In this document: positions 3,439 to 19,818 of the stretch, piece by piece | Numbering within the stretch: position 1 is the first letter of the stretch | Layout: each line of letters opens with the position of its first letter | Source: a virus | Virus record (IMG/VR): IMGVR_UViG_3300017742_001902 | Span: 1-21,612 of that record | Reading direction: 5' to 3' (one strand) | Length of the DNA: 21,612 bases | Made by a program: the position numbers and the translations under genes | The notes under the pieces: model-generated | The model's input: only the letters and a program-made list of their open reading frames with translations | The model's database searches: none | Told to the model about the DNA's origin: nothing

Positions 3439-4093
3439 GACAACTAAGTTATTCTGGGGAAAGTACTTATATAAGTTAGCTATAAGAAATGAACTAGCGC
3501 CAATATTTAGATGCAAGAATTTGTCTAATGCTAGACAAGAACTAGATAACCTTCAACTAAATTATGAAGCTGGACTACCATTAGAACGTGTTTCGTGGAA
3601 TAGAATACATCATGTAACTGAACATGCATTTATAGATGCTAAACTATTGTATAGTAACTTTAAAACAGCCGACGATTACTTGTTACGAATACAAGGAACT
3701 AGAATGAATATATATTCTAATGATAATTCTTGGTTGAAATATATTGCATCTATATTAGCAAAAGATAGTGTATGTGAATTTTGGGAACCAAGTATAGATA
3801 ACATTGATGTATTAGATTCTAATACAATTATAGTTCCTAAAAGTAATGGATATGAATATAAAGTAACCCTAAACAGTGTACTAGGTAACGATGGGTTTGC
3901 TACATTTGCAACTGCTAATCCACATCTAATTAAAGCAGGACCTGTACTAATGGAAGAAATGACAGCAAATGGCTATTGTAATAACTTATATTTTTATGCT
4001 AGAGATATGAAAGTAGTGCAACTTTGTAGTCTCTTATTAAACAATATTAGACGTATTGACAAATTAGTCGTTAAGTCTTATATAGATAAATAG
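3425..4093 (+). CDS. Unknown protein with TTG start, overlapping clpA
   Basis: A 222-residue protein I do not recognise. No ATG lies near the frame start. The TTG at 3425 is supported by the Shine-Dalgarno sequence GGAGG at 3414-3418, six bases upstream, and it overlaps the clpA end by 14 bases, which suggests translational coupling. The sequence is a mixture of helices and strands with no signal peptide and no clear membrane span. Three Cys residues lie in its second half and are not arranged as a metal site. The motif WNRIHHVTEHAF near residue 60 could be a His-containing site but is not diagnostic. Coupling suggests a function linked to the unfoldase, for instance an adaptor or a late protein, but this is inference. 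The end of the gene carries promoter-like sequences for the next gene. Confidence 0.7.
   Translation: MNLYETTKLFWGKYLYKLAIRNELAPIFRCKNLSNARQELDNLQLNYEAGLPLERVSWNRIHHVTEHAFIDAKLLYSNFKTADDYLLRIQGTRMNIYSNDNSWLKYIASILAKDSVCEFWEPSIDNIDVLDSNTIIVPKSNGYEYKVTLNSVLGNDGFATFATANPHLIKAGPVLMEEMTANGYCNNLYFYARDMKVVQLCSLLLNNIRRIDKLVVKSYIDK
4056..4084 (+). promoter_or_regulatory. Possible sigma70-like promoter inside the end of the TTG-start gene
   Basis: TTGACA (4056-4061) and TATATA (4079-4084) are 17 bases apart. The predicted start would fall only a few bases before the ATG at 4098, and the element abuts the late-like motif at 4085. It could be chance in coding sequence. Confidence 0.3.
4085..4092 (+). 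promoter_or_regulatory. Late-promoter-like element GATAAATA, 5 bases before the ATG at 4098
   Basis: GATAAATA differs from the T4 late consensus TATAAATA only at the first base. It overlaps the stop of the previous gene and ends exactly five bases before the ATG, with no Shine-Dalgarno sequence visible. It could start a leaderless late transcript of the structural-type gene that follows. Confidence 0.45.
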
Positions 4094-4459: not shown

Positions 4460-5035
4460 ATGGAACATTTTGTAAGAATAGTTTTTGAAAAAGACGAAAG
4501 TTTAACTGAATCAAAGTTAGACGAGTCAATTTTTCCAGGCAACGAACTTCTTGAAACAGAACAAGGAGCAAGTGTATATCATATACCTTTGCCAAGAGAA
4601 TTAAACGAAGAAGAAGCTGATGGCTATGCAGATCGTTTAAGTGCATATATGTTTGAACAAGGTCTTGAAGACTTTGATATTGAAATTTCAACAGATCAAG
4701 ATGAACCTATTAGTGAAGTAACATATGATGATGACGATGACTTCTTTATGGAGTATGGCGTTATGTGGTACAATGATGATGACAATCCAATAGACGAAGC
4801 AGAATATCAAGGACGTAAAGTTAAACTTGGTAAGCCTATGGCAGGTGATGTCAAGAAGTTTAAAGTATATGTTAAGAATCCAAAGGGTAATGTAGTCAAA
4901 GTTAACTTTGGACAAAAAGGCGTAAAAATTAAAAAAAGTAACCCTAAAAGACGTAGAAGTTTTAGAGCAAGACACAACTGTGATAATCCAGGACCGCGTC
5001 ATAAGGCACGTTACTGGTCATGTAGGAAGTGGTAA
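4460..5035 (+). CDS. Unknown phage protein: acidic N-terminal part, basic Cys/Trp C-terminal module
   Basis: A 191-residue protein with strongly split charge. Residues 1-115 are very acidic, including a run of five Asp around residue 91-95. Residues 118-191 are basic and contain RSFRARHNC near 166-174, then KARYWSCRKW at the very end. The conserved-looking Cys pair and aromatic-basic pattern suggest a nucleic-acid- or metal-binding module. A related-looking basic C-terminus occurs in the HAD protein at 6604-7662. I recall such C-termini in other marine T4-like phages but cannot name a family with certainty. The start follows AAGGCGGA. It sits between a structural-type gene and the putative capsid-targeted cassette, so a virion role is plausible. 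Confidence 0.65.
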   Translation: MEHFVRIVFEKDESLTESKLDESIFPGNELLETEQGASVYHIPLPRELNEEEADGYADRLSAYMFEQGLEDFDIEISTDQDEPISEVTYDDDDDFFMEYGVMWYNDDDNPIDEAEYQGRKVKLGKPMAGDVKKFKVYVKNPKGNVVKVNFGQKGVKIKKSNPKRRRSFRARHNCDNPGPRHKARYWSCRKW

Positions 5036-5036
5036 A

Positions 5037-5267
5037 ATGCGTATAGAAGAAATATTAACTGAAGCAGATAAACAAGGTTGGCTAGGTAAAGCATGGGACA
5101 CTGTGCTACATGGCAGAAAAGACCCACTTGTTCCTTGGGTTAGACAACATATACGCAGTAAAGGTACACAATGGATCTACAGAAATGTAGATAAACAGTT
5201 CCCAAAACGTTATGTAAGAAGTGATGTAAAGAGTGCTATAGGACAAGTACTAGGAACAGGAGCATAA
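5037..5267 (+). CDS. Small basic protein with capsid-targeting-like N-terminus
   Basis: A 76-residue protein. The start at 5037 is chosen because AGGAAGTGG (5024-5032) precedes it; an upstream in-frame ATG at 4980 lies inside the previous gene and lacks a ribosome site. The N-terminus MRIEEILTE-A resembles the T4 internal-protein targeting segment, with a candidate gp21-type cleavage LTE/A after Glu9. The remaining 67 residues are basic and Trp-rich (GWLGKAWDTV, PWVRQHIRSKGTQWIYRNV), suiting DNA or scaffold contact. Nothing catalytic is recognisable. The gene is one base from its neighbours on both sides. A packaged internal head protein is inference. Confidence 0.65.
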   Translation: MRIEEILTEADKQGWLGKAWDTVLHGRKDPLVPWVRQHIRSKGTQWIYRNVDKQFPKRYVRSDVKSAIGQVLGTGA

Positions 5268-5268
5268 C

Positions 5269-5604
5269 ATGCGTATTGATGAATTCACAGTACCACAAGA
5301 AACAAATTTAGGCTTTGATGTAGTTGATGACGTATGTGTATTCATGCGTAACGATCCTGTATTTTATAGAAAAAGTTTTTTTCCCACTATGTCTAAAATA
5401 GCTGACATGCATCGTAATGGTAAAGAAATTAATGCCAATGAATGTATGGGGTCTATGGTAGAAAATGGTATAAATTCTTATTGTAAGAAATTTAAAATTG
5501 CACCAATACCTGATGAAGTGTTTACACAAGATGATAGAACTGGTATTATAGACAAAATCTTTTCTGAGGAAATGGAATCAATCAAAGGTGGTGACTATAA
5601 ATGA
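5269..5604 (+). CDS. Unknown protein beginning MRIDEF
   Basis: A 111-residue protein of mixed charge. The N-terminus MRIDEFTVPQE partly resembles its neighbours' targeting-like segments but lacks a clean hydrophobic-x-Glu site in the first ten residues. The body is helical, with two Cys residues spaced 13 apart and no known motif. It starts after AGGAG and ends with a 4-base ATGA overlap into the nucleotidyltransferase gene, so the two are probably translationally coupled. A function tied to the nucleotidyltransferase or to the virion is inference. Confidence 0.6.
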   Translation: MRIDEFTVPQETNLGFDVVDDVCVFMRNDPVFYRKSFFPTMSKIADMHRNGKEINANECMGSMVENGINSYCKKFKIAPIPDEVFTQDDRTGIIDKIFSEEMESIKGGDYK

Positions 5605-6380
5605 GACTAAGACAATTATTTGAAGCACCTAGAACAGCCGTAATGGCTTTTGGTCGTATGAATCCTCCTACTATTGGTCATCAAAAACTTGTTGACAAGA
5701 TAAAAAGTATTCCTGGAGATCACTATGTGTTTCTTAGTCAAAGTCAAAAACCAAAAACAGATCCTTTAGCATTTGCAGACAAACTACGTTATGCTAAGTT
5801 CTTCTTTCCACAAGTTACAATAGGTAATCCTGAAGTAAAAACTATTATTCAAGCACTACAAAAAATTGCTGAATTAGGATATGAAAATTTATTCTATGTT
5901 GCTGGTAGTGATCGTGTACAATCATTTGAAGAATTAATTAACAAATACAACGGTATTGAGTATACATTTAAATCAATTAAAGTTGTAAGTGCAGGCGAGC
6001 GTGATCCAGATGCAGATGGTGCAGAAGGAATGAGCGCAAGTAAAATGCGTCAAGCGGCTGTAGATAATGATTTAGAATCATTTAAACAAGGTGTTCCACA
6101 ACCAAAACTAGCAGACGAAATGTTTGCGGCAGTTAGACAAGGTATGGGCATTACAGACAAAGAGCCTGAAATGGCAGAAGGCTGGTTCAGTGGAGATCCA
6201 TTACCTGCACCGGAATGGCTAAATGATGAAAACAAAGCGTTATGGCAAAAAATTGAACCTACTACTAAAGATAAAAGACTTGTAGCACAATTAAAAAAGT
6301 TACAAAGATTTATAAAAGCGGGTCTTACTGACGAAGCCAATCAAGTTATTACAAAAGAACTAAAGTTTCTACAGAGGTAA
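5601..6380 (+). CDS. Nucleotidyltransferase of the HxGH superfamily with capsid-targeting-like N-terminus
   Basis: A 259-residue protein. Residues 12-160 form a Rossmann-like nucleotidyltransferase: FGRMNPPTIGH at 17-27 (the TIGH variant of HxGH that binds the nucleotide phosphates), AGSDR at 101-105 and MSASKMR at 144-150 (the ISxxxxR-type motif). The family includes NMN adenylyltransferases, pantetheine-phosphate adenylyltransferases and cytidylyltransferases, and the substrate cannot be set from sequence. A second region (190-259), separated by an acidic linker, has amphipathic Lys-rich helices and no known motif. The N-terminus MRLRQLFE-A offers an LFE/A cleavage site after Glu8, as in T4 internal proteins, so the enzyme might be packaged and injected. 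It has a good Shine-Dalgarno sequence and an ATGA overlap with the previous gene. Confidence 0.78.
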   Translation: MRLRQLFEAPRTAVMAFGRMNPPTIGHQKLVDKIKSIPGDHYVFLSQSQKPKTDPLAFADKLRYAKFFFPQVTIGNPEVKTIIQALQKIAELGYENLFYVAGSDRVQSFEELINKYNGIEYTFKSIKVVSAGERDPDADGAEGMSASKMRQAAVDNDLESFKQGVPQPKLADEMFAAVRQGMGITDKEPEMAEGWFSGDPLPAPEWLNDENKALWQKIEPTTKDKRLVAQLKKLQRFIKAGLTDEANQVITKELKFLQR

Positions 6381-6382
6381 TC

Positions 6383-6607
6383 ATGGACGAACTAGCTGAC
6401 ATTGTTAGATTAGCTGGCGTTAATGAATTCAAAGGTTACTCTCCTTATGAAGGTTCTAATATATCCGTTACTGGTACAGAAAAACGTGAGATAGAACGTG
6501 ATAAAAATATCCAACCCGGCACAGACGAATGGTTCAAACTATGGTTTAGTCGTCCTTATTGGAAGGGACAGGAATATCCTGCAGGGTTACGAGGACGTAA
6601 AAAATGA
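6383..6607 (+). CDS. Small unknown protein beginning MDELADIVRLAGVNE
   Basis: A 74-residue protein. The first 15 residues form a hydrophobic-acidic helix ending in GVNE, a longer version of the targeting-like N-termini around it. The middle is polar, and the C-terminal half contains WFKLWFSRPYWKGQEYPAGL, rich in aromatics, followed by a basic tail RGRKK. No catalytic or metal motif is seen. It starts after AGAGGT and overlaps the next gene by four bases (ATGA). I recall similar small proteins in marine T4-like phages but no function. Confidence 0.6.
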   Translation: MDELADIVRLAGVNEFKGYSPYEGSNISVTGTEKREIERDKNIQPGTDEWFKLWFSRPYWKGQEYPAGLRGRKK

Positions 6608-7662
6608 AGATAACAGATATTCTAAATGAAGATGGTAGAATTGTAAAAGGCGTTAACACTACAGTTGATGTAGGCACTAACGAGATTAAGAAGCAAGCCG
6701 CAAAGTTTGGATTTAACGTAGACAAAGACGGCAAGCCGCCAACACTTAGTACTAAAGTAAAAGGCAAGAGTACAAATGTGTTATTTAATTTAGGTATGGC
6801 AGAAGGTAAAGAGCCTCTAAGATATACTGCCGCTGAATGGGCTATAATGGAAGGCGGACATAGTTTAGAAAACTCTGTAACACCGCAAAGACAAACAGGA
6901 AATTTATTTACATCATTACAGTCAACAAGACTAGTAAAAGAAGCAGAACGTACACTAAAAGAAACGCTAGGAGAAATTGCTCCTAATACAGAAATATTTG
7001 TGGACATGGACGGTGTACTTGCAGACTTCTTTGGCGAATGGGCTAAGTCTCAAAATGTTGATAACTGGAAAGACATTAAAGACCCAGCGGCGGCAATAAA
7101 CAAAATTAGAAACATTGATAATTTTTGGTTAGATTTACCATTACTACCGCAAGCAAAAGAATTGCTTATGCTAATTAAAAAAGTAAAAGGCAAATACAAA
7201 ATTTGTACAAGTCCATTAGCAAATGATCCTCGCAGTGAGCCACATAAGCGTAGATGGATTAAAGAAAATTTATCTTTCTTCCTTCCTGAAGAAGTAATTG
7301 TTACACACAACAAGCCAGCGTGGGCTAAACAAGATGACGGTACTCCTAATATACTCATCGATGATTATGGTGTAAACATTAATGCTTGGGAAGCTGCCGG
7401 AGGTATTGGATTTAAATACAAAGATCATAAGTTTGAACGTACAGCTAAAGATATCAAACAGCATATGCAAGAGCCTGTAGAAGAAAACTTTGCTGACGGT
7501 AAGAAAAAAGGCAAAAGCAGACCTGGCAGAGTAAAGAAGTCAGGTGCTAGTTGTAATGGTAGTGTAACAGCATTACGCAAACGTGCTAAGAACGCAAGTG
7601 GTGAGAAGGCTAAAATGTATCACTGGTGTGCGAATATGAAGAGCGGAAAGAAGAAGAAATAA
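6604..7662 (+). CDS. HAD-family 5'(3')-nucleotidase-like protein with targeting-like N-terminus and basic C-terminal module
   Basis: A 352-residue three-part protein. Residues 1-125 are a polar extension starting MKITDILNE-D, a candidate cleavage after Glu9. Residues 128-290 are a HAD hydrolase: DMDGVLADF at 134-142 (nucleophile Asp134, acid/base Asp136), CTSP at 201-204 (the motif II Thr/Ser position) and IDDY at 252-255 (motif IV). The DMDGVLADF form and overall length match 5'(3')-deoxyribonucleotidases, which dephosphorylate nucleotides. Residues 297-352 are a Lys/Arg-rich tail containing ASCNGS and MYHWCANMKSGKK, likely to bind nucleic acid. An enzyme with a DNA-binding tail and a head-targeting signal would fit packaging with DNA, but that is inference. 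It may instead repair or salvage nucleotides in the cytoplasm. Confidence 0.78.
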   Translation: MKITDILNEDGRIVKGVNTTVDVGTNEIKKQAAKFGFNVDKDGKPPTLSTKVKGKSTNVLFNLGMAEGKEPLRYTAAEWAIMEGGHSLENSVTPQRQTGNLFTSLQSTRLVKEAERTLKETLGEIAPNTEIFVDMDGVLADFFGEWAKSQNVDNWKDIKDPAAAINKIRNIDNFWLDLPLLPQAKELLMLIKKVKGKYKICTSPLANDPRSEPHKRRWIKENLSFFLPEEVIVTHNKPAWAKQDDGTPNILIDDYGVNINAWEAAGGIGFKYKDHKFERTAKDIKQHMQEPVEENFADGKKKGKSRPGRVKKSGASCNGSVTALRKRAKNASGEKAKMYHWCANMKSGKKKK

Positions 7663-7862
7663 TGTTTAGTAAACAATGTAAATTACACCTAGAAAAGCAA
7701 GGTGAAACAGGACTACAACATATGAAGACAGCACTAAAAACAGCAGTTAAATTACAGTTGTTAGTGCCAACACTAATAATACACAGTGTTGCACCAAGAT
7801 TTTTTACAAATACTGCATCAACTGTTATGAAAGATATTTTAGATGAAAGAGATAGACATTAA
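7662..7862 (+). CDS. Small DUF6356-like membrane protein
   Basis: A 66-residue protein starting at the ATG that shares one base with the previous stop (TAATG); an upstream in-frame ATG at 7626 lies inside the HAD gene. It carries HLEKQGETGLQH, then a hydrophobic stretch (about 27-42) and VHSVAPRFFTNTAS. This pattern (H-L...GE-x-x-x-x-H, then a helix, then H-x-x-x-P-x-x-F) matches what I remember of bacterial DUF6356 proteins. Function is unknown, and it is predicted to span the membrane once. Its presence among virion-type genes is odd. The assignment comes from memory of the family pattern. Confidence 0.6.
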   Translation: MFSKQCKLHLEKQGETGLQHMKTALKTAVKLQLLVPTLIIHSVAPRFFTNTASTVMKDILDERDRH

Positions 7863-7980
7863 ACACTATGTACATAAGTACAAAGAACACGAAGCAAAAA
7901 GGATAAGTACTAATATGCGTAATGCATATTGGAAACAATATCTATCGAAACTGAAGGAACAAGACAATGAAAATGTATGA
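7843..7980 (+). CDS. Possible 45-residue basic helical protein
   Basis: An ATG at 7843 inside the end of the previous gene opens a 45-residue frame that crosses the whole gap and ends at 7980, inside the Cys-rich gene. The product is highly charged (HYVHKYKEHEAKR, then YWKQYLSKLKEQDN) and would be helical. No Shine-Dalgarno sequence is evident. An internal in-frame ATG at 7915, five bases after GATAAGTA, could give a 21-residue product instead. It may be a real mini-gene or only the leader of the next gene. Confidence 0.35.
   Translation: MKEIDIKHYVHKYKEHEAKRISTNMRNAYWKQYLSKLKEQDNENV
7902..7909 (+). promoter_or_regulatory. Late-promoter-like element GATAAGTA before an ATG at 7915
   Basis: The same octamer as at 284, again exactly five bases before an ATG. 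The predicted transcript would begin at or near 7915 and include AAGGAAC, the Shine-Dalgarno sequence of the Cys-rich gene at 7967. The element therefore probably serves that gene whether or not the mini-frame is translated. Confidence 0.4.
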
Positions 7981-8398
7981 AGTATTTAATGAAGGTGCGG
8001 CTCCTTCAGCAGTTAAAAAATTAATGGCAGGACACAAGTATACTTGTAAAGATTGCGGTTGTGAAATGCATAATTGCAAACCAGATTGCGATTGTAAACA
8101 TGATTCACATGACGAAACAGGATCATGGTGGAAAGACGAAAACGGCAATGGTATTCCAGACGTAATGGAAGAATCAAAAGATACACACTGTTCAGACAAG
8201 TGTTGTGGCGCTGATGTAAAAGCAGAAGATTGTAAATGTCCTCCAACATGTAAGCATTGTAACTGTAATGCAGTAGCTGAAACTACTACTTCAGGCGGAA
8301 TAGCTACTTCAATGGGCGGTGGCAATGGGTTTGCTAACGGTGGGCCTGGTGTAATTAAACGTGCAAGAAAATCACGTAACAAAGCATCTAAACGATAA
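7967..8398 (+). CDS. Cys-rich, probably metal-binding protein with capsid-targeting-like N-terminus
   Basis: A 143-residue protein with 14 Cys in two clusters. Cluster 1 has Cys27, 30, 32, 37, 41 and 43 plus nearby His; cluster 2 has Cys75, 79, 80, 89, 91, 95, 98 and 100. Between them DENGNGIPD (57-65) resembles a calcium-binding loop of the thrombospondin-3/dockerin type. The Gly-rich segment at 109-128 is followed by a basic tail (KRARKSRNKASKR). The N-terminus MKMYEVFNE-G is the closest match in the window to the T4 internal-protein leader MKTYQEFIAE-A. I know no family with this layout. Zinc or other metal binding is a reasonable reading, since disulfides are unlikely in a cytoplasmic phage protein. 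It could condense or accompany DNA in the head. Confidence 0.7.
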   Translation: MKMYEVFNEGAAPSAVKKLMAGHKYTCKDCGCEMHNCKPDCDCKHDSHDETGSWWKDENGNGIPDVMEESKDTHCSDKCCGADVKAEDCKCPPTCKHCNCNAVAETTTSGGIATSMGGGNGFANGGPGVIKRARKSRNKASKR

Positions 8399-8401
8399 AT
8401 A
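8394..8401 (+). promoter_or_regulatory. Late-promoter-like element GATAAATA before the gene at 8432
   Basis: GATAAATA overlaps the stop of the Cys-rich gene. The predicted start near 8407 leaves a 25-base leader with TTGGAGAC before the ATG at 8432. A TATAAT hexamer at 8413-8418 lacks a good -35 partner. Confidence 0.4.
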
Positions 8402-8431
8402 CGTTATACTAGTATAATTGGAGACTTTTAA

Positions 8432-8767
8432 ATGAGAAAAGCAGAATTTAAAGAAGGGTTAGCTGACGAAGCACAACGTGCCGAAATGGATCACGAAGTG
8501 CAAATGGCTCGTGCTGATCTTTACAAGATTGCAAAATATGCAATCAAATTACACGATATGTTAAAAAGCGTAAGTGAAGCAGAAGGCTTAGAAGGATGGC
8601 AACAGGCTAAAATTACTAAAGCCGCTGACTACATTGGATCAGTGTATCATAACTTAGACTATGATCAAAAATTTGCTGGCGGACAAATAGCTGAAGAACC
8701 TACAGTTGAAGGTGATTACAAGCAGTCATTAAACGCTATCTTAGAAAAAAAATTAGCTGACAGTTAA
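8432..8767 (+). CDS. Helical phage protein, probable virion-associated
   Basis: A 111-residue, almost wholly helical protein. The core, roughly residues 12-85, contains YAIKLHDMLKSV, LEGWQQAKITKAADYIGSVYHNLDY, a pattern I associate with conserved proteins of marine T4-like phages, often beside structural genes; no biochemical role is known to me. The N-terminus MRKAEFKE-G contains a hydrophobic-x-Glu site after residue 8, as in several neighbours. It has no Cys and no membrane span. It has its own GATAAATA element and a clear GGAG Shine-Dalgarno sequence, so it may be made in quantity late in infection. Confidence 0.62.
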   Translation: MRKAEFKEGLADEAQRAEMDHEVQMARADLYKIAKYAIKLHDMLKSVSEAEGLEGWQQAKITKAADYIGSVYHNLDYDQKFAGGQIAEEPTVEGDYKQSLNAILEKKLADS

Positions 8768-8776
8768 GGACGTTCA

Positions 8777-10519
8777 ATGAGTAATGTCCGAAGCATATTA
8801 AATGTATTAGATGCAATCAACGAAAACACCGTTCCTACGCCTGAGCGCGAAGGCTGGTGGGCTGACGAAGATAGTACAAGTATAGACTTCCAAGGATATA
8901 ATCAAGATACTTACAGAGGAAAGCATCCTTTTGTAATTGTTAACAGAGGTAATCAAGTTACTCTTATTTGGATACCTACCGCTAAAGCTCGACAAGAAAT
9001 CAAAGCAAAATATCCTAACTCAATATTATACAAAACAGGTACTGAAAAGTCTCCACAGCCAATATCAGTATCAACTAGTAGTGTTGATAAAATTGAAAAA
9101 AAGTTAAATGATTATAAAGATACATTAGACAACTTTGTTAAGTCTGATCAAAAAGGATTAGCAAACAATCCTGAAGCAGTTGGTGCAATTACAGAGTTAA
9201 ATCAAAGACTTTCTACACTAGGATTTAGTGCAACTACAGGTTCAACAAAATACGATATTAAAACTGTTAATACAGTAAAAGCATTACAACAAGCATATAA
9301 TAATATGTACGGTGATCAAAGACTCAAAGTTGATGGTGACTTAGGACCAAATACGTTTAAATCGTTAACTGCCGTTGAAACATTAATAAAAAGGTTTAAT
9401 CTTCAAACTACAACTACAGAATCATTTAAAAGTGAAATTGCTAGAAATATTATTAAAGAAGAAGTAAGCCAACTAACTGGTCCTGACGCCGGCGAACTAA
9501 CAAAAACATTAGTTGCATTAGATAAATTTTATCAATCAGCAACTACTAACGGATTAACTGTTAGCCCTGAATTACAGCAAAAACTTATAAATGCTAGACT
9601 ATCGTTAGCAACACATACTATTGACGTATCAAGAGAAATAACACCATATATTAGTACAATATCTAAAGGTGCAGTTGAAAGATCAAAAGAACAGACTAAA
9701 GTAGCAACTGGTGGCGGCAAAATAACAGTAGAACCAACAAGCAGACTAGAAACCAAAGGTAAAACACCCGAACCTAAAGTTGTAAAAAAAGCAGAACCTG
9801 AAGTTGTAACACCCGAACCTAAAGTTGTAAAAAAAGCAGAACCTGAAGTTGTAACACCCGAACCTAGACCTAGCGTTCTTCCATTTAGAGGCGGCGATGA
9901 TATCCAAGCAATGCAATCAGATATGCTAGTATTGTTAAGTGCTTGGACAGGCAATCAAGAGACCTTTAAAGTAAAAGTACAAGAATTTATAGATCTATAT
10001 CAAGAAAGCATTAACAAAAATGGCGATGATCGTGTACGTATGCAAGCTGAAGGATTAATGCGTAGACTAATACAAATATTAATTGGTAATAGTAGAGTTC
10101 CTGATAATGTACAAAGCGACAGTGCAGGGAAAATTTTAATACGTAAAGATAAAATTGACAGAAGTACAGTTAAATTAATAAGAGACTTTAGAACTAGTCT
10201 AGGCGGGCCTAAGCCAGAGCCAGAGCCAGAGGAAGAGTCTAATGTTTTTGAGTTTCAAATAAACGGGTTTCCAGGTAAAATTACTATAACAGATGATAAC
10301 ACTATTGAAGCAGATGTATATGACTATGAATTTAAAAATGTCAAGTTTCTGCCTCCAAGAGCGTTCGAAGGCACTGATGATAGACCAGGAAAAGATGGAA
10401 CACAGATATATGGTAGTAATGATGCTAACGGCGCAACTAAAGCCTTTGATCAACAATGGGATGAGTTTTTTGAAAAACTTGCAGAAGCTGATAAGTTAGT
10501 TAAGGAAAGAAAAGACTAA
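8777..10519 (+). CDS. Large protein with a peptidoglycan-binding-type domain and Pro/Glu repeats
   Basis: A 580-residue multi-part protein. After an N-terminus with a candidate cleavage DAINE-N (after Glu16) and a small domain to about residue 90, residues about 130-205 match the PG_binding_1 pattern: leucine-rich helices, LGF, then LKVDGDLGPNTFKSL. This fold usually binds peptidoglycan peptides and often accompanies lysins, but no catalytic domain is visible. A helical region (210-300) follows, then a Pro/Glu/Lys linker with two identical 15-residue repeats (330-359). A helical domain (about 370-470), a second short linker PKPEPEPEEE and a beta-rich C-terminal domain complete it. No signal peptide is seen. 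A virion protein acting on the host wall during entry, or a scaffold-like internal protein, are both possible. It overlaps the next gene by one base. Confidence 0.65.
   Translation: MSNVRSILNVLDAINENTVPTPEREGWWADEDSTSIDFQGYNQDTYRGKHPFVIVNRGNQVTLIWIPTAKARQEIKAKYPNSILYKTGTEKSPQPISVSTSSVDKIEKKLNDYKDTLDNFVKSDQKGLANNPEAVGAITELNQRLSTLGFSATTGSTKYDIKTVNTVKALQQAYNNMYGDQRLKVDGDLGPNTFKSLTAVETLIKRFNLQTTTTESFKSEIARNIIKEEVSQLTGPDAGELTKTLVALDKFYQSATTNGLTVSPELQQKLINARLSLATHTIDVSREITPYISTISKGAVERSKEQTKVATGGGKITVEPTSRLETKGKTPEPKVVKKAEPEVVTPEPKVVKKAEPEVVTPEPRPSVLPFRGGDDIQAMQSDMLVLLSAWTGNQETFKVKVQEFIDLYQESINKNGDDRVRMQAEGLMRRLIQILIGNSRVPDNVQSDSAGKILIRKDKIDRSTVKLIRDFRTSLGGPKPEPEPEEESNVFEFQINGFPGKITITDDNTIEADVYDYEFKNVKFLPPRAFEGTDDRPGKDGTQIYGSNDANGATKAFDQQWDEFFEKLAEADKLVKERKD
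9764..9867 (+). repeat. 45-bp tandem repeat encoding a Pro/Glu/Lys linker
   Basis: Two identical 45-base copies (9764-9808 and 9809-9853) are followed by a partial third copy starting at 9854. Each encodes the 15-residue unit TPEPKVVKKAEPEVV. The exact nucleotide identity points to recent duplication, and copy number may vary between related phages. The protein segment would be an extended, stiff linker between domains. Confidence 0.9.
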
Positions 10520-11277
10520 TGAAAGTATATAGTATTATTACAGAAAACTCAAAGTCTGCCAAGGACGTTGCAAATATGTTTGATCAACAAACTTGGTACA
10601 AAATATTTGCACACTATTCTGCAACAGCAAACGGTGGCAACTATGAAAATCCTGGCATTAGTCTTGGTAATAATAAAGGATCTATTTTAAAACGATTACA
10701 AACTATGGATGTTGCTATAGGTAGTAAAATGGATCAATACACAAATAATTATGATTGGTTGCGTACAGCTAGACGTTATGGTTTAACTAAAGGATTATCT
10801 GTAGAAGCTGGGTGGGACGAAATAGCAAACCACTTGCGAAAAGGTACTATTGGTGACTATAGAAAATTAAAAGGCTTTGATGTTGCCGATAATCCATTAA
10901 CTGCTCCAAATGCAAGTCCTAACACATCTGAAACTAGAGAAAAATTTATTGAACTAGTTCGAGCAAGCGGATTAGTACCAAACAGTTTTTCCGATGCCGG
11001 TAAATTAAAAGCTGTATGGAAAAAATGTATAATGGAATGGTTACCAACACTCAGAGATGATGAGTGGAAACGTAAGTTAGACTGTGTTCCTGCTAATAAT
11101 CAATCAGGAGCTCCAGTTGTTGTATTATCAGCGAAAATGAGAGATCAATATTTAATTTCTAAACTAGGAAATGGTGCCATATCACTTGAAGATTTTGCCA
11201 AAGTATTGTATCAATGGTTAGTAAACGCTGATATGTTGTTTTCTAAAGACGGTTATTGTCAAGAACCAGAACAATAA
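10519..11277 (+). CDS. Unknown protein with capsid-targeting-like N-terminus
   Basis: A 252-residue protein beginning MKVYSIITE-N, with a candidate ITE/N cleavage after Glu9 and M-K-x-Y as in T4 internal proteins. The body is largely helical and basic to neutral, with Trp- and Tyr-rich stretches (DQQTWYKIFAHYSA, WKKCIMEWLPTLRDDEW). I recognise no catalytic motif, membrane span or signal peptide. It is the last gene of the putative late block. Its stop codon lies within a terminator hairpin, and it shares one base with the gene before it (TAATG). A packaged internal protein is inference from the N-terminus and context. Confidence 0.62.
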   Translation: MKVYSIITENSKSAKDVANMFDQQTWYKIFAHYSATANGGNYENPGISLGNNKGSILKRLQTMDVAIGSKMDQYTNNYDWLRTARRYGLTKGLSVEAGWDEIANHLRKGTIGDYRKLKGFDVADNPLTAPNASPNTSETREKFIELVRASGLVPNSFSDAGKLKAVWKKCIMEWLPTLRDDEWKRKLDCVPANNQSGAPVVVLSAKMRDQYLISKLGNGAISLEDFAKVLYQWLVNADMLFSKDGYCQEPEQ

Positions 11278-11608: not shown

Positions 11609-11890
11609 ATGCAGAAAATTAAGCAGTTTTGGATTAATAGTTATACAACTGATAAGGTTGCATTTGCATTTGAACTTATTAGTTTTGTCTTTACAGTGGC
11701 CGCTAGTTTAACATTAGCGTTCAATGCTAAAGACCCTAATATGCTTATTATCTATCCGTTCTTTTTTGTAGGATCGGTTACACAATGCTACGCGGCTGTT
11801 CGCAGAGGCGCGGCATGGGTAATGTTACTAACAGGTTACTTTGCTGTTATTAATGTATTTGGATATGGAGTTGCGGCACTATGGTGGTAA
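11609..11890 (+). CDS. Small membrane protein with about three helices
   Basis: A 93-residue protein with hydrophobic segments near residues 17-40, 48-63 and 70-90, predicting an inner-membrane protein of three helices. The start is uncertain: ATG 11609 follows the previous stop by one base, ATG 11597 would overlap it, and neither has a good Shine-Dalgarno sequence, so translation may be coupled. It overlaps the next gene, which encodes another small membrane protein, by ten bases, so the two probably act together. The function is unknown. Confidence 0.6.
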   Translation: MQKIKQFWINSYTTDKVAFAFELISFVFTVAASLTLAFNAKDPNMLIIYPFFFVGSVTQCYAAVRRGAAWVMLLTGYFAVINVFGYGVAALWW

Positions 11891-12099
11891 AACCCTATCA
11901 ACAACTAGCATGGTTTAGTACAGCATGTTTGTTGGTTGCGGCAACAATGGCCGCATTTAATTTATACCCTTGGTACATTTATGCATTTATTGCAAGCAAC
12001 AGTCTTTGGGTATTAATCGGTATCCTGTGGAAAGAACGTAGTCTTATTGTTCTAAACGCAGGATTAACCGTAATTTATGTTGCAGGACTTGTCCTGTAA
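11881..12099 (+). CDS. Small membrane protein, partner of the preceding gene
   Basis: A 72-residue protein with three hydrophobic segments (about 8-27, 31-48 and 54-72). The last half, with ASNSLWVLIGILWKERS and LNAGLTVIYVAGLVL, has the Asn/Trp/Gly spacing seen in small PQ-loop- or YgjV-like membrane proteins, but the match is weak. It starts inside the end of the previous gene (10-base overlap) with GGAG about 11 bases upstream. A two-subunit membrane complex is a fair guess from gene order. Confidence 0.58.
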   Translation: MVVKPYQQLAWFSTACLLVAATMAAFNLYPWYIYAFIASNSLWVLIGILWKERSLIVLNAGLTVIYVAGLVL

Positions 12100-18291: not shown

Positions 18292-19818
18292 ATGCGGAAA
18301 GATTTAACTACAGAACAAAAAGATTATGCACGTTTTTTACCTGCACTTAGTGGCTTCTATGCTACATACGTAGGTAAGCAACGTTTCGACGAGTATGTAG
18401 ATAAGTCGCGAATTCCTAGTAACTTTACACACGGTGTTGAAAGTCTAAACTATCTAAATGCACAAGAAGGCCAGTTCCAATATAAATGGAGTCTATACTC
18501 GGCAGGACATGCTGACTTAGATACAACTAAGGTTGTGCCTAAAGAAGACATGGTTCGTAATAGGGATAGAGACAACACTTGGTTACTTGGTGACTCAGGT
18601 GGTTTCCAAATTGGTAAAGGTGTTTGGGAAGGCGACTGGAAAGATCCTAATTGTCCTAAAGCGCAAAAGAAACGTGACGGTGTGTTACGTTGGATGGACG
18701 CTTACATGGACTATGGTATGATACTTGATATTCCAGCTTGGGTAGCACGTTCTCCTGAAGGTGCAAAAGCAACAGGTATTAGTACATACGATGAAGCTGT
18801 TAAAGCAACACGCATTAACAATGACTACTGGATGAAACATAGAACAGGTGCTTGTAAATTTCTAAACGTACTACAAGGTGAGAATCATGCAGATGCTGAT
18901 GACTGGTACGAGCAAATGAAAGATTATTGTGATCCAGCAAAGTATCCTGACAATCATTTTAACGGTTGGTCAATGGGTGGACAGAACATGTGCGATGTGC
19001 ATTTGGTTCTAAAACGCATAGTTACATTACACTTTGATAACCTACTACAGCAAGGCATACACGATGTAATGCACTTCTTAGGCACATCTAAACTAGAATG
19101 GGCTACACTATTAACTGATATACAACGAGCCGTAAGAAAGAATTATAATGAAAACTTTACTGCCACATTTGACTGCGCTAGTCCTTTCCTTGCAACCGCA
19201 AATGGACAGATCTACATTCAGAATGAAACTGAAGACAGAAGCAAATGGACGTATCGTATGGTGCCATCAGTTGACGATAAGAAGTATGCTTCAGACAACC
19301 GTGGATTTAGAGACACTGTTATATCAGATGGGGTATTTAAAAACTTTGAAGACTCACCGCTTACCGCAGAACTCAAAGTATCGGACGTTTGCACTTATGC
19401 TCCAGGCGACCTAAACAAGATTGGTAAAGAAGGAAAGACATCATGGGATAGTTTTTCATATGCGATCCAAATGGGTCATAACGTGTGGAGTCACATTAAT
19501 GCAGTTCAAGAAGCAAACAGACAATACGACAATGGAGTTATTCCAAAAATGCTTGTACAAGAGCAATTTGACAGGATTCTATTTAGAGATGTTGTGGAAG
19601 AAATATTCGCAATTGACAACAAAGAAGAAGCCCTAGCAAAGATTGATGAGTATTCAAAGTTTTGGATGGCTATTCCAGGTACAAGAGGTGCTATTGGTAA
19701 AAAGACTGTAAACGCTAGTACACACTTTAATGCATTGTTTGATGTTGAAGAACCGATTGTCAATGAAGACGAATTAGATGAAACTAAATTGGAGAACCTT
19801 GAGGATGAGCAATTATGA
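18292..19818 (+). CDS. tRNA-guanine transglycosylase/DpdA-like enzyme, candidate DNA 7-deazaguanine transglycosylase
   Basis: A 508-residue TIM-barrel enzyme of the TGT superfamily. Catalytic landmarks occur in TGT order: LLGDSGGFQ with Asp101 (base-binding acid), GMILDIPAW with Asp146, NVLQGE at 192-197, GWSMGG at 225-230, and FDCASP at 293-298 with Asp294 in the nucleophile position. Near the end, IQMGHNVWSHINAVQEANRQY resembles the TGT helix that carries a zinc-ligand His, but the CxCxxC ligands are reduced to one Cys (DVCTYAP, about 366-370). Phage DpdA proteins of this superfamily swap guanine in DNA for 7-deazaguanines, which blocks host restriction enzymes. The position beside the clamp and among replication genes favours DNA over tRNA as substrate. 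No preQ0 synthesis genes lie in this window. The Shine-Dalgarno sequence is weak. Confidence 0.78.
   Translation: MRKDLTTEQKDYARFLPALSGFYATYVGKQRFDEYVDKSRIPSNFTHGVESLNYLNAQEGQFQYKWSLYSAGHADLDTTKVVPKEDMVRNRDRDNTWLLGDSGGFQIGKGVWEGDWKDPNCPKAQKKRDGVLRWMDAYMDYGMILDIPAWVARSPEGAKATGISTYDEAVKATRINNDYWMKHRTGACKFLNVLQGENHADADDWYEQMKDYCDPAKYPDNHFNGWSMGGQNMCDVHLVLKRIVTLHFDNLLQQGIHDVMHFLGTSKLEWATLLTDIQRAVRKNYNENFTATFDCASPFLATANGQIYIQNETEDRSKWTYRMVPSVDDKKYASDNRGFRDTVISDGVFKNFEDSPLTAELKVSDVCTYAPGDLNKIGKEGKTSWDSFSYAIQMGHNVWSHINAVQEANRQYDNGVIPKMLVQEQFDRILFRDVVEEIFAIDNKEEALAKIDEYSKFWMAIPGTRGAIGKKTVNASTHFNALFDVEEPIVNEDELDETKLENLEDEQL

Follow-up and report, generated by a model that had tools for sequence, protein, structure and literature searches.

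A gene cassette in a marine T4-superfamily phage carries N-terminal tags like those of T4 internal proteins and probably encodes head-packaged cargo

Bacteriophage T4 packs four internal proteins, for which late expression, core targeting, cleavage by the protease gp21, retention with the DNA and injection form an established chain. Here we analyze a 21,612-nt stretch of viral DNA (IMG/VR record IMGVR_UViG_3300017742_001902, positions 1 to 21,612, hereafter the window), in which a cassette of + strand genes at about 4460–11277 resembles this set. Like T4 IPI, IPII, IPIII and Alt with their capsid-targeting sequence (CTS), most of the cassette proteins carry a short N-terminal tag that has hydrophobic residues at the same positions and ends in hydrophobic-x-Glu. 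As in T4, the bodies behind the tag are unrelated and include small basic proteins together with one or more enzymes (in T4, Alt), and gp21 is present in the clade. The cassette differs from the T4 set in having many more proteins per genome, more families and a common shorter form of the tag, in encoding nucleotide-metabolism enzymes and shared C-terminal basic Cys modules, and in adjoining gp43 with late promoters of its own. The cyanophage cytidylyltransferase/NMNAT locus (T4-GC190; S-CREM2 gp154–160, S-SCSM1 89–97) likewise lies near replication genes and encodes a homologous nucleotidyltransferase with the same tag, with virion detection available in cyanophages, whereas most of the other bodies in the window have no homology to it. 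Cyanophage papers class these products as virion or auxiliary metabolic proteins, and we found no link to the T4-type tag in the searchable literature. The ejection proteins of giant phages with gp21-like proteases (phiKZ, SPN3US) are also head-packaged cargo with propeptides cut after Glu, but differ in their longer propeptides and inner body. The SPN3US protease motif is A-x-E, unlike L/I-x-E (PMC10052503). An earlier paper suggested that relatives of T4 incorporate various proteins by means of this tag (PMC9026906). In the searchable literature, which leaves subscription journals and preprints largely outside, we found neither an account of the tag in marine phages nor one of a cassette of this kind.

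We propose, with a probability of about 0.8, that the cassette is a late-expressed mosaic of genes for head-packaged, gp21-cleaved internal proteins that are probably injected. To score the tags we used a strict test, with hydrophobic residues at P7, P4 and P3 and Glu at P1, the positions important in T4, and with the Glu at residues 8–11; in T4 IPIII, mutagenesis showed that residues 4 and 7 govern targeting and residues 8 and 10 govern processing (PMC9026906). The test is passed by 5 of the 12 cassette open reading frames (4460 with Glu10, and 5037, 6604, 7967 and 10519 with Glu9), compared with 1 of the window's 21 other frames and 1.8% of control proteins, and the N-terminal pattern is confirmed as real and well above chance. 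The cassette features, all on the + strand, are:

4085–4092, +: −10 box GATAAATA of a T4-type late promoter, at the head of 4098/4460 and of the cassette
4460–5035, +: gene 4460, tag MEHFVRIVFE then K, followed by an acidic middle, a second L/I-x-E site and a basic Cys C-terminal domain ending ...RARHNCDNPGPRHKARYWSCRKW
4790–4798, +: predicted second cleavage site in the 4460 product, IDE then AEYQG (Glu113), aligning with LTE-AEYQG of phage C48C1
5037–5063, +: tag MRIEEILTE then A of gene 5037–5267 (76 residues), net charge +8 past the tag
5269–5604, +: gene 5269, degenerate tag MRIDEF, with relatives carrying MKIFEVTE or MVKVLEITE
5601–5624, +: short-form tag MRLRQLFE then A of nucleotidyltransferase gene 5601–6380 (NMNAT/cytidylyltransferase-like, phrog_3041, 1.4e-54)
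6401–6421, +: LAG docking-like motif IVRLAGV in gene 6383–6607, a case of the family motif h[KR]xLAG[VI] (h, hydrophobic)
6604–6630, +: tag MKITDILNE then D of gene 6604–7662, a HAD 5′-nucleotidase NT5C (PF06941, 3.6e-7) with a basic Cys C-terminal module
7518–7659 (approximate limits), +: the C-terminal module of 6604, CNGSVTALRKRAKN..MYHWCANMKSGKKKK, carrying HWCANM
7662–7980, +: two small untagged genes, 7662 and 7843
7967–7993, +: tag MKMYEVFNE then G of gene 7967–8398 (14-Cys protein), passing the strict test
8394–8401, +: second late promoter box of T4 type, GATAAATAC, in mid-cassette and upstream of 8432
8432–8455, +: short-form tag MRKAEFKE then G of gene 8432–8767 (helical protein)
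8777–8824, +: long tag MSNVRSILNVLDAINE then N of gene 8777–10519 (PG_binding_1 domain, PF01471, 4e-7)
10519–10545, +: tag MKVYSIITE then N of gene 10519–11277 (helical protein)

Ribosome-binding sites precede most of these reading frames, and those listed in an earlier reading of the window (the original prediction) all lie, with their N-termini, where it placed them. That reading counted eight of nine consecutive main genes from 5037 onward as tagged; 5037, 6604, 7967 and 10519 pass the strict test, 8777 fits with its DAINE-N set in a longer leader (Glu16, the sole 16-residue leader and a weaker case), 5601 and 8432 fit partially, and 6383 does not. It was right that 5269 is a weaker case, degenerate here and better formed in relatives, and that the small gene at 7662 lacks the pattern. 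Directly upstream of its list, 4460 is an additional tagged gene, whose Glu10 has the exact T4 numbering. The 4460 product matches phrog_7595 (1.3e-11), its orthologue in the 156-kb relative G001 begins MTKKFRDYLAE then D, and its C-terminal domain is 65% identical to a C48C1 protein that itself stands behind MKKFKQYIDE then G; a cut at Glu113 is predicted to free this basic domain. Relatives of 5037 begin MLVHEIITE and MRVNEIITE, and proteins related to 7967 begin with the canonical form, MTKTFKDYLKE then A. Relatives of 10519, none of which emerged from a single-protein search and which were found through synteny instead, begin MQVMQIIKE, MKVIQIIE and MKTIQIISE. The tags of 5601 and 8432 represent a variant that is one residue shorter, keeps P3 and the Glu, and is common in relatives. 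AlphaFold2 models of 8432 and 10519 are helical and of low confidence (mean pLDDT 64 and 63, respectively), as is the modelling of residues 1–10 of 10519.

Among relatives, we collected 157 syntenic IMG/VR loci with gp43 and the HAD protein as queries, taking as cassette genes those bounded by the conserved flanking genes 3425/4098 and 11347 and as controls the remaining genes on the same contigs; the gene caller was a simple one of our own, whose wrong starts are expected to blur the signal, not to create it. A hydrophobic-x-Glu ending at residues 7–11 was found in 110/244 cassette versus 15/253 control families when families were based on bodies (p=2e-25). Because shared C-terminal modules make such families overlap, we recounted after single-linkage clustering on the N-proximal body, which gave 31/102 versus 11/147 (p=4e-6). 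On the same clustering, the T4-like tag occurs in 19/102 cassette versus 2/147 control families (p=1e-6), or 12/58 versus 0/101 when single-member families are set aside, and its strictest form (P7, P4 and P3 all hydrophobic) in 7/102 versus 0/147 (p=0.002). These counts bear out both the concentration of the motif in the cassette and the claim that unrelated bodies stand behind one tag. The position profile shows K/R at residue 2, hydrophobic residues at 3 and 6, D/E/Q at 5 and Glu at 8 or 9 (26% and 14% of cassette families, compared with 3% and 4% of control families), with G/A preferred at P1′ after the Glu, and the same excess, sought in internal protein stretches, was not found there. 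Because the nucleotidyltransferase family swamped a weight matrix built from the relatives, family counts were used instead.

The original prediction expected the N-terminal segments to be more conserved than the rest of each protein, which in plain identity does not hold for some families: in the HAD family (6604) identity is 38% over the first ten residues and 71% over residues 12–40. What is conserved is the pattern, since hydrophobic-x-Glu is kept in 98% of 43 HAD orthologues, followed by G or D (MRIRDITE-G, MKISDLLE-D, MKWLEFKE-G, MKLFEFLKE-D), in 94% of 5601 orthologues and in 92% of 48 orthologues of 8432. Low identity with a kept pattern is how a cleavable tag should be expected to evolve. 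Among identical residues of 5601, codons differ at 49% in the tag and 48% in the body, and selection therefore acts on the protein; for 5601, this equality rules out that constraint at the nucleotide level produced the shared N-termini. In 4460 and 6604, synonymous variation is somewhat lower in the tag, with few comparisons.

The T4 late-promoter element nATAAATA occurs only twice on the + strand of the window, at 4085 and 8394. Of the orthologues of 8432, 86/110 have it upstream (median −35), as do 28/64 of those of 4460, and overall it lies upstream of 162/1041 cassette versus 68/1681 control genes, orthologues not being independent; it was found upstream of 0/73 clamp genes and 0/144 g11347 orthologues. 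In 18/44 loci the element stands ahead of the head core gene as well, and the clade encodes a late sigma factor.

Searches with PF03420 and PF07068 gave no matches in 16 fragmentary clade records, and cyanophage gp21 and gp23 protein queries gave none in the clade's long contigs tested, some of which lack the head locus. These contigs were missed by both kinds of search because the records stop near the portal or lack head genes; the 156-kb record, for example, ends just beyond the portal. A portal search recovered a head locus in the order portal, acidic core protein, gp21, scaffold, gp23, and we rejected an absence of gp21 and gp23 from the clade. The clade gp21 matches PF03420 at 1e-22 and 1e-25 and its gp23 matches PF07068 at 1e-98, with a Leu-x-Glu at residue 41, the site where T4 cleaves, whose Leu and Glu are invariant across 34 sequences, so that the protease and the Glu cleavage site on which the original prediction depends are both present in relatives. 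Contig G018 (175,736 bases) holds the head locus and the cassette together, and its gp43 is 78% identical to that of the window. Tagged proteins also adjoin the portal in this clade (MKVSQIVVE-S, MNVYDILNE-D and MKINEIDE-G). Separately, two neighbouring genes near the portal of G001 (7052–9744) resemble core or ejection proteins, one encoding an Ala/Gly-rich 683-residue protein with an internal YIAE-A and the other a disordered-looking 213-residue protein beginning MKVSQIVVE-S.

Virion evidence comes from cyanophages, in which the 5601-type nucleotidyltransferase is a core gene whose product was detected in purified S-SM1 particles (PMC3037559) and whose homologues were found in the virions of S-SCSM1 (PMC9602691), S-SZBM1 (PMC9146016) and S-CREM2 (PMC10665884). 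The virion nucleotidyltransferases of S-CREM2, S-SZBM1 and S-SCSM1 bear the canonical tags MKNFSSFLTE-A, MRFRQFIIE-A and MKSFLQFLKE-A, respectively. All five canonical-tag proteins of S-CREM2 (S-adenosylmethionine (SAM) hydrolase gp6, gp13, kinase gp14, gp136 and cytidylyltransferase gp154) were virion-detected, compared with no match among 167 undetected proteins (p about 7e-4 by our own arithmetic), and its Cas9-like protein is a sixth case, with FASFMAE-A inside an apparently extended N-terminus. The S-SCSM1 nucleotidyltransferase neighbours 89, 90, 92, 93, 95 and 97 are also labelled virion proteins. A control scan of T4 found the pattern in 9/276 genes, including ipII, ipIII, alt, gp2 and gp24, the last annotated as gp21-cleaved.

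We suggest that the cassette would be transcribed late as a mosaic gene set, that the amphipathic N-terminal tag, M-[KR]-h-x-[EDQ]-h-(h)-x-Glu, would recruit each tagged protein to the prohead core, and that gp21 would cut after the Glu during head maturation and release the body. The body would stay with the DNA, in many cases aided by a basic Cys-containing C-terminal module, and the freed bodies would enter the host along with the DNA at infection. The interchangeable bodies here comprise an NMNAT/cytidylyltransferase-like enzyme, a 5′-nucleotidase, a Cys-rich protein, a peptidoglycan-binding-domain protein and others. Once in the host, the enzymes might alter NAD or nucleotide pools or counter defence. 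The T4 chain from late expression to injection fits every feature tested here, and we infer packaging, cleavage and injection in this phage. Several observations weigh against this proposal. Virion presence is known from cyanophage homologues, from which packaging in this clade is extrapolated, and the record is a fragment with the head genes outside the window. The short forms in 5601 and 8432 lack a hydrophobic residue at the targeting position P4, and about half of the clade's cassette families have no tag. Many cyanophage virion cassette proteins also lack it, making the tag neither necessary nor a full predictor; canonical tags in S-SCSM1 are found in 1/47 virion versus 1/245 other proteins, which is not significant, and S-SZBM1 191 and 192 have perfect tags yet are unreported in the virion, although small proteins may be missed.

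The tagged proteins could instead be parts of the prohead core or scaffold that give the head its shape and for the most part disappear after cleavage, as T4 gp67 and gp68 do, and the tags on core-like proteins beside the clade's portal are in keeping with this; we nonetheless hold it to be unlikely, as the bodies include enzymes (nucleotidyltransferase, 5′-nucleotidase), vary freely among relatives and have homologues that persist in mature cyanophage virions. The position of the cassette, flanked by Clp/DnaJ genes and gp43, would also suit a docking tag for a complex outside the head, such as the replication machinery encoded alongside. The register and Glu, however, match gp21 specificity with G/A preferred at P1′, late boxes mark the cassette and none of the clamp (0/73) or g11347 (0/144) genes, and homologues are present in virions, so that we give this explanation very little weight. 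As MK/MR starts are common in AT-rich phage genes (15% of control families have K/R as their second residue) and single cases are weak proof, chance or a compositional bias toward such starts with a helix might be invoked, but same-genome controls (2/147 versus 19/102 families) and the Glu frequencies at residues 8 and 9 (3%/4% versus 26%/14%) leave it a negligible probability.

The bodies share further elements. Over the last 40 residues, net charge has a median of +6.3 in tagged cassette families versus +1.6 in controls (p=1e-16), and HWCANM occurs in 104 cassette proteins of 22 families and in no control protein. In Melnitz, a 650-residue protein encoded from 14914 onward joins the tag MKKFSEIIE-A, a 5601-like nucleotidyltransferase and a 4460-like C-terminal domain, and therefore links two separate window genes, 5601 and 4460. 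For 6383, the proposed cleavage tag AGVNE-F is not upheld: hydrophobic-x-Glu lies near the N-terminus in 30% of 60 orthologues, and the family conserves h[KR]xLAG[VI] instead. This motif is present in 57 cassette proteins and 0/1865 control proteins, and otherwise only at the C-terminus of the scaffold gp22 of the same clade; h[KR]xLAG[VIL] is possibly a second docking peptide. We also observed that the N-terminal arm of the major capsid protein just past its cleavage site, GFTGAAAPxGPxAG[FY]DP, recurs almost unchanged in cassette-located cyanophage proteins, namely S-CREM2 gp160 (28342–29235), S-SCSM1_97 (10988–11173) and S-CAM9_158 (11772–12005), the first two virion-detected. Tag-like peptides stand at the C-terminus of two virion proteins, S-CREM2 gp12 (KTFRDFLN) and S-SCSM1_93 (RTFKEFLEYIE), where the docking peptide may also work. 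In T4, the DNA-end protector gp2 (76061–76885) begins MAIFQIINE-S and matches the tag pattern, and the hypothetical 54-residue product of gene 61.1 (18966–19130) begins MKTFKEFIKE-D, near the IPII/IPIII tag; we predict that gp61.1 is an unrecognised internal protein.

From left to right, the window encodes DnaJ, a Clp ATPase, small genes, the cassette, gp43, sugar/nucleotide enzymes and a sliding clamp, some of these names being our own reading of the sequences, and we take by eye a long conserved gene at 18292–19818 to resemble a queuine tRNA-ribosyltransferase/DpdA-type enzyme. The nearest named gp43 matches are the jumbo myoviruses Phosso (49%) and Atu_ph07 (43%), the latter with the same DnaJ-Clp-gp43 order, and close relatives of this gp43 occur in hundreds of IMG/VR contigs. 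Judged by close gp43, gp21 and gp23, the window does not belong to Kyanoviridae. By these comparisons the phage is placed within the T4 superfamily and is not a cyanophage; the earlier description marine T4-like is amended to that extent, gp43 being closest to jumbo myoviruses.

An abundant uncultured marine clade thus appears to have made the T4 tag a platform for changing enzymes and small proteins. The tag would be a sequence-only predictor of the phage proteins, many products of ‘hypothetical’ genes among them, that reach the cell at time zero. It would also account for the cytidylyltransferases, SAM hydrolase, kinase and Cas9-like nuclease in cyanophage virions, and it yields specific predictions about the proteins that marine T4-like phages inject. 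More tentatively, and with somewhat less than even odds in our view, T4-superfamily cargo may borrow several head docking peptides, namely the core/CTS tag, the gp22 C-terminal tail (6383 family) and the cyanophage major capsid protein N-terminal arm; if true, borrowed docking peptides would form a general code from which the injected proteins of these viruses could be read.

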